Source: Acidimicrobiales bacterium (GTDB taxonomy: Bacteria > Actinomycetota > Acidimicrobiia > Acidimicrobiales > Palsa-688). Taken from it: a DNA stretch of 11,545 nt. The position numbers and the translations under genes are program-made. The DNA lies in the NCBI GenBank assembly GCA_030039575.1, contig JASHVH010000512.1, positions 1-11,545 of the forward strand, written 5' to 3'. The notes under the pieces were generated by a model. The model did not search any database, was not told the origin of the DNA, and worked only from the letters and a program-made list of their open reading frames with translations. Below, one piece after another: positions 8,649-11,545 of this stretch (positions are counted from its first letter, which is position 1; each line of letters opens with the position of its first letter).

Positions 8649-8692
8649 AGCCGGGTGTGCCCTTAACCCGTGACCATGCACCGTGGAGGCCG

Positions 8693-8752: not shown

Positions 8753-9538
8753 ATGGCGCTCAGCACTTTCGCCAATGGGCGCCTATGGGGCGCACGCTAT
8801 GGGGCCGCACGACCCTGGGTACTGGCCCTTCACGGCTGGGGCCGGGACCACCACGACTTCGACGCCGTACTGGCCGGCCTCGATGCCGTCGCCCTCGACC
8901 TCCCAGGCCACGGCGTGGCCCCGGAACCGCCAGAGCCGTGGTCGACTCACCAGTACGCCGAGTGGGTGGCCCCCGTTTTGCAGGACCTGGACGGCGGGCC
9001 CTGGGTCGTGGTTGGCCACAGCTTCGGCGCCAGAGTGGCAGTTCATCTCGCCGCCTCTCTTGGTGCCCCGCCCGCGCCCGCCATTGGCGTTGGCGCCCTC
9101 GTGCTGACAGGGGCACCGCTGGCCCCGGTACCCGGAAGGCGCCGGCCGCGGCCGTCGCTGGCCTACCGGACCGGGCGCGCCCTTGGTCGGATGGGGCTTG
9201 TCTCTGATGAGCGCATGGAGCAACTACGGCGCCGGCACGGGTCCGAAGAGTACCGGCGCGCCAGCCCCGTCATGCGCGGAGTCCTGGTAAAGGCCGTCGG
9301 TGAAACGGCCAATGCCGAGTACGTACCGCCCCTGCGCCAATGGGCGGCCGACGGGGGGGCGGTGGAACTGGTGTGGTGGGAGCGCGACCCTGAGGCCTCC
9401 TTGGACGGCGTCCTGACCGGCCTGGACGGCTTGACGTCGCCACGGGCCACCGTGGTCCCGGGCTCAGGCCACCTGATGAACGGCGAGCTGGTCGGCGCAG
9501 TCAGGGCGGCCCTCCTGCGCCACCAGCCGTCAAGATGA
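8753..9538 (+). CDS. Alpha/beta-hydrolase fold protein, substrate unknown
   Basis: This 261-residue protein is a cytoplasmic alpha/beta hydrolase with a complete catalytic set. The oxyanion motif is LHGWG (26-30), the LDLPGHG turn is at 48-54, the nucleophile elbow GHSFG has Ser90 at 88-92, the probable acid is Asp212 in WWERDPE, and the base is His240 in PGSGHLMN. A basic, proline-rich stretch at 127-135 begins the lid region. The ATG at 8753 is chosen over an upstream GTG at 8657: the extra 32 residues look unlike the family and read through the hairpin and helicase promoter region. Only a weak GGAA precedes the ATG. It is the first gene of a forward set with murF and ddl, so a cell-envelope or cell-wall linked esterase or peptidase role is possible, but nothing in the protein shows it. 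Its TGA begins the overlap relay before murF. Confidence 0.85.
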   Translation: MALSTFANGRLWGARYGAARPWVLALHGWGRDHHDFDAVLAGLDAVALDLPGHGVAPEPPEPWSTHQYAEWVAPVLQDLDGGPWVVVGHSFGARVAVHLAASLGAPPAPAIGVGALVLTGAPLAPVPGRRRPRPSLAYRTGRALGRMGLVSDERMEQLRRRHGSEEYRRASPVMRGVLVKAVGETANAEYVPPLRQWAADGGAVELVWWERDPEASLDGVLTGLDGLTSPRATVVPGSGHLMNGELVGAVRAALLRHQPSR

Positions 9539-9552
9539 GCCAGGTCACATGA
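9535..9552 (+). CDS. Mini-ORF 1 (MSQVT), first link of an ATGA overlap chain
   Basis: The ATG at 9535 overlaps the hydrolase stop (ATGA, 9535-9538). It reads five codons and stops at TGA 9550-9552, which itself overlaps the next ATG. A peptide product is unlikely to matter; the reading frame may serve to carry terminating ribosomes forward. The frames are directly visible, but translation is not proven. Confidence 0.3.
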   Translation: MSQVT

Positions 9553-9569
9553 GCTCCCACTTGCTATGA
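9549..9569 (+). CDS. Mini-ORF 2 (MSSHLL), second link of the ATGA overlap chain
   Basis: The ATG at 9549 overlaps the stop of mini-ORF 1. Six codons end at TGA 9567-9569, overlapping the ATG at 9566. Translation would depend on reinitiation at each ATGA junction; no separate Shine-Dalgarno site is seen. Confidence 0.3.
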   Translation: MSSHLL

Positions 9570-9586
9570 ACAGCAACGTGCCATGA
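9566..9586 (+). CDS. Mini-ORF 3 (MNSNVP), last link of the ATGA overlap chain before murF
   Basis: The ATG at 9566 overlaps the stop of mini-ORF 2. Six codons end at TGA 9584-9586, overlapping the murF ATG at 9583. The peptide resembles the murF N-terminus (MNTNLI), which fits a duplicated start region. Confidence 0.3.
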   Translation: MNSNVP

Positions 9587-11136
9587 ACACCAATCTGATC
9601 GACGGGACCGGCCTCGGGCTGGCGGTGGGCGCCCTCGGGCTGGCTTACGTCAGGTGGCTGAGGGTCGCTCAGCGCGAGCACTACTTGCCTGGGACGGTGT
9701 CTCGCTTCGCCCGCCGCTGGTGGGGAGCGGGGACGGTCAACATGGCCCTCGGGACGATCGGTTTGGCGGGCGCCGTTGCGTCGGTGTGGTACTCGCCCGC
9801 CGGCTTCGCCGCCGTCGTCGCCGCCGGGGCCGGCCCGCTCGGCCTGAGGGTCAGAGGCCGGACGTCCAAGTTGGTCTGGACATCCCGGTTGCGCCGCCTC
9901 GCCGGTGCCGGCGTCGTCCTGGCGGCGTTGCCGATCGCCGGTCTCGGCGCCGTCGGGCTGCACGCATCCTTCAGCACCGCCGCCCTGTGCGCCATGGGCG
10001 CGCCGGTGCTGGTCGACTTGGCCCTGCTGGTTATGAAAAGGCCAGAGGCTCGCCTGCTCCGGCCTTACGTCAAGCGAGCCAGCGAACGCCTGGCCGCCGT
10101 GAGGCCCCGGGTCGTCGCTATCACCGGTTCCTATGGCAAAACGACGACAAAGGGTTACGTAGCACATATCGTCGCCGGCAGTACGTCTGTGGTCGCCAGC
10201 CCTGCCAGTTTCAATAACACGGCTGGTCTGGCCACGGCCATAAACGACCATTTGGCCACGGGGACGAGGGTTTTTGTAGCTGAAATGGGCACGTACGGCC
10301 CCGGCGAAATAGCCGCCATGTGCGCCTGGGCGGTGCCGGAAATAGGAGTGATCACGGCCCTCGGGCCCGTTCATTTGGAGCGCATGGGGAGCCTCGACCG
10401 GATCGCGCAAGCGAAATCGGAAATATTGGAGAAGGCACAGGTCGCCGTCCTGAACGTCGACTACCCGCTCCTGGCCGAACTGGCCCAAAAGGCGCAAGAA
10501 AAGGGCAAGTTTGTTTGGCGATGTTCGGCAAAGGACACCGAAGCAGATGTGTCCGTCGTACGCCAGAACGGAAAGTTGCGGGCCCGGACGTCACATTTAC
10601 GGGGTGAAATGGACGTGCTCGTCGCCGCTGCCCCTGAGGTGGAGCCAGGAAATGTGGCCTGCGCCGTGGCCGCCGCTCTTTCTCTGGGCGTCCCCGCCGA
10701 AATAGTGGCAGCCCGGCTCGAGGATTTGCCGGGCGTACCCCATCGACGCAGCGCTCGCCAGTCGGCCAACGGCGTGAACGTGATCGATGACACTTACAAT
10801 TCCAACCCGGCGGGAGCTAACGCCGCCATTGCGTTACTGGAAATTAAAGCCGCGGCCGGTGGGCAGAAGGTGGTCGTGACCCCGGGGATGGTGGAGCTTG
10901 GCCAATTGCAGGCCATGGAGAACGCAAAATTGGCGGCCAGCGCCGCCTCGGTCGCCACCGAGCTGGTTGTAGTAGGCCGCACGAACGCCCGCTCGCTGCT
11001 GAGGGGGGCGAGCACCGCCGGGCTGCCGGCCCGGGAGGCCCGGGACCTGGCCGAAGCGGTGGCCTGGGTGTCGGCCAACCTGGGCCCCGGGGACGCCGTG
11101 TTGTACGAGAACGACCTCCCGGACCATTACCCTTGA
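9583..11136 (+). CDS. murF: Membrane-anchored Mur ligase, MurF-like (D-Ala-D-Ala adding)
   Basis: MurF joins D-Ala-D-Ala to UDP-MurNAc-tripeptide with ATP. In this 517-residue protein the usual N-terminal substrate-binding domain is replaced by about 150 residues with several hydrophobic segments (~5-24, 50-68, 70-86, 106-127, 130-150) and a loop REHYLPGTVSRFARRWW. The central ATPase domain has GSYGKTT (182-188), AEMGTYGPGEIA, and HLERMGSLDRIAQAKSEIL, whose K278 corresponds to the carbamylated lysine. The C-terminal domain has IDDTYNSNP (401-409). The last residues are YENDLPDHYP. The ATG at 9583 is the only start downstream of an in-frame TGA at 9550-9552 that keeps the first helix. It has no Shine-Dalgarno site and overlaps the end of a mini-ORF, so translational coupling is likely. 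The downstream ddl gene makes one of its substrates, which supports the MurF call. A related membrane Mur ligase with another substrate cannot be excluded. Confidence 0.85.
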   Translation: MNTNLIDGTGLGLAVGALGLAYVRWLRVAQREHYLPGTVSRFARRWWGAGTVNMALGTIGLAGAVASVWYSPAGFAAVVAAGAGPLGLRVRGRTSKLVWTSRLRRLAGAGVVLAALPIAGLGAVGLHASFSTAALCAMGAPVLVDLALLVMKRPEARLLRPYVKRASERLAAVRPRVVAITGSYGKTTTKGYVAHIVAGSTSVVASPASFNNTAGLATAINDHLATGTRVFVAEMGTYGPGEIAAMCAWAVPEIGVITALGPVHLERMGSLDRIAQAKSEILEKAQVAVLNVDYPLLAELAQKAQEKGKFVWRCSAKDTEADVSVVRQNGKLRARTSHLRGEMDVLVAAAPEVEPGNVACAVAAALSLGVPAEIVAARLEDLPGVPHRRSARQSANGVNVIDDTYNSNPAGANAAIALLEIKAAAGGQKVVVTPGMVELGQLQAMENAKLAASAASVATELVVVGRTNARSLLRGASTAGLPAREARDLAEAVAWVSANLGPGDAVLYENDLPDHYP

Positions 11137-11151
11137 GCCATTACCGTTGAG
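11124..11151 (+). repeat. 14-bp tandem duplication at the murF stop codon
   Basis: CCATTACCCTTGAG (11124-11137) is followed directly by CCATTACCGTTGAG (11138-11151), with one mismatch. The murF TGA (11134-11136) is in the first copy. The second copy ends inside the ddl Shine-Dalgarno site. This looks like a simple slippage duplication at a gene boundary. Confidence 0.8.
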
Positions 11152-11155
11152 AAGG
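11149..11155 (+). promoter_or_regulatory. Ribosome binding site GAGAAGG for ddl
   Basis: GAGAAGG lies 8 bases before the ATG at 11164. It is the best Shine-Dalgarno site in the window and decides for ATG 11164 over the in-frame GTG at 11155. Part of it derives from the second copy of the 14-bp duplication. Confidence 0.75.
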
Positions 11156-11163
11156 TGAGCCCA

Positions 11164-11545
11164 ATGGGGACAGCGCAACCGGGGACAGGGAAGGTCGGGG
11201 TCATTTTCGGGGGCCCGTCGCCCGAACACGACGTGAGCATCCTCACCGGCTTGCAGGCGGCACGCGCCCTCGTGCAAGCCGGGCCCGGCGCCAGCAACGT
11301 CGAGGCCATTTACTGGACCAAGGGGGAGCGTTTCGTTTCGGTCGACCCCACGCTGGAGGCCGCCGCCTTCGTCGACGGGCCACCCAAGGACGCCAGGGAG
11401 CTCCGGTTCACCGCCCAGCCGGGCGGTGGTTTTTTCGCCACCAAGCAATGGGTGCTCGGTGGCGGGAAGGAACGTCGCCTGGAGCTCGAAGCGCTGGTCA
11501 ACTGCTGCCATGGAGGTCCTGGCGAGGACGGGACGCTGCAGGCGG
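11164..11545 (+). CDS. ddl: D-alanine--D-alanine ligase, 5' part (runs off the window)
   Basis: Ddl is a cytoplasmic ATP-grasp enzyme that joins two D-alanines for peptidoglycan precursors. The open frame continues to the window edge, giving 127 codons of a protein usually near 350 residues. The N-terminal family motif is VGVIFGGPSPEHDVS (11-25), with the conserved Glu at 21. The second motif is CCHGGPGEDGTLQ (114-126), equivalent to HGxxGEDGxxQ. The ATP-grasp core lies beyond the window. It starts 27 bases after the murF stop with a strong Shine-Dalgarno site, so it can be translated independently within the same transcript. Codon use and style match murF. Confidence 0.92.
   Translation, partial: MGTAQPGTGKVGVIFGGPSPEHDVSILTGLQAARALVQAGPGASNVEAIYWTKGERFVSVDPTLEAAAFVDGPPKDARELRFTAQPGGGFFATKQWVLGGGKERRLELEALVNCCHGGPGEDGTLQA

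Follow-up and report, generated by a model that had tools for sequence, protein, structure and literature searches.

Chained ATGA stop/start overlaps between a hydrolase gene and a MurF-like ligase gene, and the unit lengths of similar arrays in the Acidimicrobiales

The window, i.e., the whole stretch of 11,545 nt that was analyzed, is contig JASHVH010000512.1 (C143) of the Acidimicrobiales bacterium assembly GCA_030039575.1 (G000), a genome that is 68% complete and divided into 565 contigs, and several homologues of its proteins are labelled Acidimicrobiales or Acidimicrobiaceae. On the plus strand an alpha/beta hydrolase gene is followed by the gene of a MurF-like Mur ligase and by the start of a D-Ala-D-Ala ligase gene (ddl). 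The hydrolase gene (8753..9538, plus strand, 261 codons), whose ATG at 8753 was picked by alignment with homologues, is identified by these homologues and by an Abhydrolase_6 match on a longer frame that opens at 8657, and its TGA at 9536-9538 forms the first link of the chain that is the subject of this work. The ligase gene, here called murF for brevity (9583..11136, plus strand, 517 codons from the ATG at 9583), gives Mur_ligase_M and Mur_ligase_C matches; "MurF-like" is the safe name for its product, because the score against TIGR01143 (murF) of 210.8 bits lies below the curated cut-off of 288.6 and because the domain search returned no match to the Mur ligase N-domain. By eye, the first 150 residues of this protein (window 9583-10060) look membrane-spanning, a start that is common to its homologues.

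The hydrolase stop and the murF start are separated by a gap of 44 nt, which is bridged by ATGA stop/start overlaps at 9535, 9549, 9566, and 9583 that link the two genes through three mini-ORFs of 5, 6, and 6 codons, and the coordinates assigned to this chain in a preliminary description of the window are confirmed. Mini-ORF1 (MSQVT, 5 codons, 9535..9552, plus strand) leads to the next ATGA 14 nt on, mini-ORF2 (MSSHLL, 6 codons, 9549..9569, plus strand) to one 17 nt on, and mini-ORF3 (MNSNVP, 6 codons, 9566..9586, plus strand), which resembles a murF start, to the murF ATGA another 17 nt on. Because the total shift along the chain is 48 nt, the hydrolase frame is shared by mini-ORF3 and the murF frame by mini-ORF1. 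The spacer has a GC content of 57% vs 68% for the window. Shine-Dalgarno (SD) duplex energies, calculated against an anti-SD string, are 0.4 kcal/mol at the murF ATG, -3.7 kcal/mol (a weak site) at the ATG of mini-ORF2 at 9549, and -8.9 kcal/mol (a strong site) at the ddl ATG at 11164, so that murF, as already noted in the preliminary description, has no SD site and by this measure gives no sign of an independent initiation site.

The next junction downstream has features of its own. Within 11124-11164, a 14-bp tandem duplication called by Tandem Repeats Finder covers the murF stop, and by eye the murF-ddl junction spells TTGA at 11133, TTGA at 11147, and GTGA at 11155 in relay phase towards ddl. 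No relay is claimed there, as the strong SD site at ATG 11164 means that such a chain may be idle.

The chain at the hydrolase-murF junction is hard to attribute to chance, in agreement with the first reading of the sequence. When the spacer was shuffled, an ATGA chain joining 9535 to 9583 appeared about 3 times per 10,000 (mononucleotide shuffles 0.032%, dinucleotide shuffles 0.025%), and setting the window's own 44-mers in the gap, with the spacer-overlapping ones skipped, gave it at 0 of 11501 positions; with GTG and TTG starts counted too, the corresponding figures are 0.21%, 0.35%, and 29 of 11501. With regard to origin, the 17-nt units at 9549, 9566, and 9583 are identical at 11, 11, and 12 of 17 bases in pairwise comparison, and their non-ATGA parts are more alike than the 13-mers that follow other ATGAs (p = 0.003). 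In addition, the MNSNV of mini-ORF3 is like the murF starts of close homologues (MNSN in P0004, MKSN in P0002 and P0003). Taken as sequence likeness, this favors an origin of the 17-bp units by tandem duplication of the murF start, which had been suggested from the similarity of the units; the three of 17 bp look tandemly duplicated, and the first, 14-bp unit has no clear similarity to the others. The array is not among the repeats called by Tandem Repeats Finder.

The same junction was compared in 37 loci, from which 29 relatives were retained after setting aside five loci without one of the two gene matches, the window's own locus, and the repeat records L032 and L034. With ATG, GTG, or TTG taken as starts (DTGA), 21 of the 29 relatives have a direct DTGA overlap in the same gene order and no chain, five lack a DTGA where the hydrolase stops, and three (L016, L004, and L013) have a chain at the homologous hydrolase-ligase junction. 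The chain of L016 (1363-1489) is made of mini-ORFs of 22, 3, and 17 codons, with one GTG start, and extends across 119 nt; an AGGAGG seen by eye a little upstream of the ligase ATG speaks for independent initiation of the ligase at that locus. The chains of L004 and L013 consist of one link each. The only same-genus locus, L003, has a single ATGA, and its gene ends align with those of the window; the closest homologues, at 76-82% identity, are protein records only. The hydrolase-murF chain is not conserved among these relatives, and the expectation that it would be kept across related genomes was not borne out. Because the single overlap is found in the 21 relatives, L003 among them, overlap coupling is the common and probably the ancestral state and the window's chain is probably derived, so that the latter looks like a derived means of keeping the ancestral overlap. 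Relatives with the same gene order, no chain, and a normal SD site had been put forward as the case that would speak against a ribosome relay; what was found is half of this, as the 21 relatives lack a chain yet have a direct overlap. They do not refute a relay, because a direct stop/start overlap leaves no gap and because three of the 29 have another chain. Some hydrolase homologues have altered tails, i.e., a short C-terminal repeat in P0127, about 15 extra residues in P0133, and an end in ...AEAMNKPVL in P0139, and the hydrolase-ligase junction seems, on these sequences, to be prone to small rearrangements.

Chains of this kind are found elsewhere in the same genome, where three nearby ATGAs gave 140 matches vs 19 in a reversed control. 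The 100 triples listed of the 140 contain 186 distinct links, with 105 being 0, 55 being 2, and 26 being 1 modulo 3, and, because multiple-of-3 links look like coding sequence, fixed spacings were used in the comparison across genomes. Several of the matches are 14-bp tandem arrays that run from the stop of one long frame to the start of the next gene. With Pfam support on both sides, three 14-bp links join a BPD transporter gene to another (C95), a URO-D gene to that of a protoporphyrinogen oxidase-like protein (C153), and a UPF0261 gene to a PEP hydrolase-like gene (C209), and one 17-bp link joins two further BPD transporter genes (C267). Five other chains, whose first stop closes no frame of 100 codons, end on the start of a gene: that of a methyltransferase (C33, where the chain begins at the contig edge), a GH39 protein (C300), a BadF-type ATPase (C304; links of 14, 17, and 14), a TPP enzyme (C255; links of 20 and 20), and an oxidoreductase (C518; links of 17 and 17). 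The chains have no one repeat sequence in common, and the units differ among C33, C95, C153, C209, C300, C304, and the window. Arrays of ATGA at 15 bp, a 3n spacing that allows no relay, are present in this genome in C238 (6930-6975) and C284 (13306-13336), the latter after the stop of a 542-codon frame. A TCATGA at the unit junction places an ATGA chain on both strands at 1969-2014 of L138 (on C153) and at 90255-90328 of contig C7 of genome G070.

The comparison across genomes covered 148 genomes (the own genome and relatives of the order) and at least three equally spaced ATGAs at spacings of 13 and 16 (3n+1) or 14 and 17 (3n+2). An array was considered gene-joining when its first TGA closed a frame, and its last ATG opened an ORF, of at least 100 codons each, so that the tallies rest on open frames of 100 codons, and not on gene calls, for four spacings in one order. 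At spacings 13, 14, 16, and 17, arrays were found in 17, 56, 32, and 53 genomes, and those listed comprise 23, 97, 41, and 76 distinct arrays, respectively, palindromic ones being counted once per strand. Gene-joining arrays number 2, 32, 5, and 34 at the four spacings, and arrays with neither long frame 14, 29, 21, and 10. Where genes are joined, the 3n+2 arrays thus outnumber the 3n+1 arrays by 66 to 7, as compared to 39 vs 35 where neither side has a long frame (Fisher p = 4e-7, odds ratio 8.5); arrays flanked by just one long frame number 68 vs 22. The imbalance among the gene-joining arrays is 41 vs 2 after a codon-position GC filter on both genes, 62 vs 7 after merging of homologous junctions (genes homologous on both sides), and 65 vs 7 without L306, one of the 66, which has two N past its last counted ATGA. 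The window's own array is not among the 66; its mixed links, one of 14 followed by two of 17, place it in the "downstream only" class.

Consistent with a role of the mini-ORFs, all of them are open in 66 of 66 gene-joining 3n+2 arrays vs 31 of 39 non-genic ones (p = 2e-4). Upstream neighbour units that are one base off ATGA read GTGA or TTGA in 11 of 21 cases, where 2/12 is expected (p = 2e-4), and downstream ones in 2 of 6; for 3n+1 arrays the corresponding counts are 1 of 5 and 0 of 5. When chains are extended upstream over GTGA or TTGA, 7 of 52 "downstream only" 3n+2 arrays become gene-joining vs 0 of 13 of 3n+1. The rarity of frame-breaking unit lengths at gene junctions (7 vs 66) indicates that the mini-ORFs are of consequence at such places. 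Four homologous junction pairs have a chain in both genomes, namely a His_biosynth/HisF-type pair in two genera of the family (L313 and L306), a junction from an amino acid kinase to an ArgD-type gene (L316 and L317), one from ScpB to a pseudouridine synthase (L164 and L347), where 9 of 20 inter-ATGA bases differ by our own count and all ATGAs are kept, and L365 and L302, where one genome has a period of 14 and the other of 17, a change that keeps the frame; the gene names of the first three pairs rest on one member each. The longest 14-bp ATGA arrays are L366 (G125, C69, 17587-17702), with eight links, and one in G245 (C262, 6065-6180), with seven overlapping matches. In G004, G018, and G026, three genomes that belong to one genus, the reversed control at spacing 14 equals or exceeds the ATGA count. 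A sample of the phylum (246 genomes, of which 17, with the own one, belong to the order) has arrays of spacing 14 in 39 genomes and of spacing 16 in 25, and among the arrays examined outside the order there is no frame excess (2 of 26 gene-joining at spacing 14 vs 2 of 25 at 16, one of the latter two being in fact an 8-bp chain, which is also 3n+2). The phenomenon seems concentrated in the order.

In the model proposed here, which we regard as probable, the hydrolase and the MurF-like ligase were ancestrally joined by a single ATGA overlap, tandem duplication at this overlap produced the chain, and a ribosome relay keeps the genes coupled. A plain 44-nt insertion should uncouple the two genes, because in reporters coupling fell steeply over shorter distances: in H. 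volcanii it was approximately nil at 22-23 nt, and in E. coli a distance of 38 nt either abolished it or lowered it by 80-90%, according to the data given in PMC10666635. Duplications with a unit length of 3n+2 (here 14, 17, and 17) would set a new ATG on each stop, so that a ribosome ending the hydrolase at 9536 would find an ATG one base back, restart, read five codons, and stop at 9550; termination and restart would then be repeated over the following mini-ORFs, and murF would be entered after mini-ORF3. Such duplications would recur in the order, with relay-keeping ones persisting at gene junctions and relay-breaking ones mostly lost. The bias of 66 vs 7 among gene-joining arrays is what a relay predicts if duplications that break the frame are lost.

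The alternative that survives best is that the array is neutral debris, i.e., a tolerated duplication with murF being started independently, by weak de novo initiation or from an internal promoter, and with ATGAs that are in phase by coincidence. The absence of the chain from 21 of 29 relatives would fit such an origin, as would the occurrence of ATGA tandem arrays away from genes as well (74 of 237 lack a long frame on either side) and the large number of junctions and genomes scanned, which offsets a small per-junction expectation. What neutral duplication does not predict is a frame bias confined to arrays beside long frames, and with the murF ATG being devoid of an SD site as well, this explanation is considered unlikely. 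A second alternative retains the translation of the mini-ORFs but hands no ribosome on, the ribosomes on them merely keeping the RNA around the murF start open so that a fresh ribosome can load. Such RNA unfolding is a model kept open for coupled genes in a recent review (PMC12548453). It is set against by the lack of an SD site at the murF ATG that could recruit a new ribosome, and, though both models need translated mini-ORFs, a restart of the same ribosome accounts more naturally for the dependence on unit frame, which makes the unfolding model distinctly improbable here. That the hydrolase once overlapped murF, with its stop in the TGA at 9584, and was later cut short by a mutation creating the TGA at 9536, with the chain as a by-product, would suit the open hydrolase frame from 9539 to 9583 and the longer tail of P0133, but is rejected as highly improbable on the C-termini of homologues, because, of the ten best (P0122-P0131), nine stop one or two residues past the RH(Q/R)P motif, as the window's protein does, and the same-genus hydrolase ends at that point, directly on its ligase start.

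The relay proposed in the preliminary description is partly supported, by the frame rule across the class of arrays and by a chain beyond chance, and is not supported by conservation at the murF junction. Judged from sequence comparison, the relay reading draws its support from the class and is plausible for the hydrolase-murF junction; it is the class-wide frame bias that points to a dependence of murF translation on hydrolase translation, and from it we infer the passage of ribosomes along the chain and a dependence of murF on the chain. More tentatively, as a possibility that falls short of being probable, stop/start relay arrays could form an unnamed class, common in this actinobacterial order, in which 3n+2 duplications are retained through consecutive terminations and re-initiations of a single ribosome on ORFs of 5-6 codons, and in which the number of units could act as a heritable setting for downstream output; the copy number reaches eight links in L366, an array that is itself without evidence of joining genes. 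If the relay is true, ORFs too short for annotation can ferry ribosomes over gaps within operons, which would explain how operons survive small insertions at their junctions. Whether the same or a fresh ribosome translates a coupled downstream gene is presented as not settled in PMC12548453, and natural arrays with mostly frame-keeping unit lengths would be a genetic record of that choice. Array length, copy number, and frame vary among genomes, and each can be moved singly into reporters.

Translational coupling by termination-reinitiation at 4-nt ATGA overlaps is known (PMC6728339, PMC10666635). Each of the four junctions of the chain is such a 4-nt, co-directed stop/start overlap, and the known system shares with it an SD site that is dispensable in principle and a coupling that is strongly distance-dependent; it differs in that the known cases are pairs of full genes with one overlap, whereas here three ORFs of 5-6 codons are interposed and a 3n+2 unit rule extends across genomes. 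The mycobacterial MIRUs, as described in PMC12548453, are short repetitive, apparently mobile elements, in which a repeat at the start codon carries an ORF coupled to the gene at a spacing of -4 nt, limiting harm to expression. The units of the chain are alike in this arrangement, and their ORFs likewise overlap the stop and the start of the flanking genes; unlike MIRUs, they measure 14-17 bp, have a sequence that varies by junction within one genome, and look like local tandem duplications. MIRU unit lengths of 53, 77, and 101 bp are also 3n+2. Leader uORFs and engineered minicistrons similarly use a very short ORF to bring a ribosome to the next start, and, in the account given in PMC12548453, these are single leader or designed ORFs, unlike the natural tandem chains found here between two genes of an operon. 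No description of tandem ATGA mini-ORF chains was found in the titles and abstract openings that searches of an open-licence PMC library returned. The closest known systems are ATGA termination-reinitiation and the mycobacterial MIRUs.
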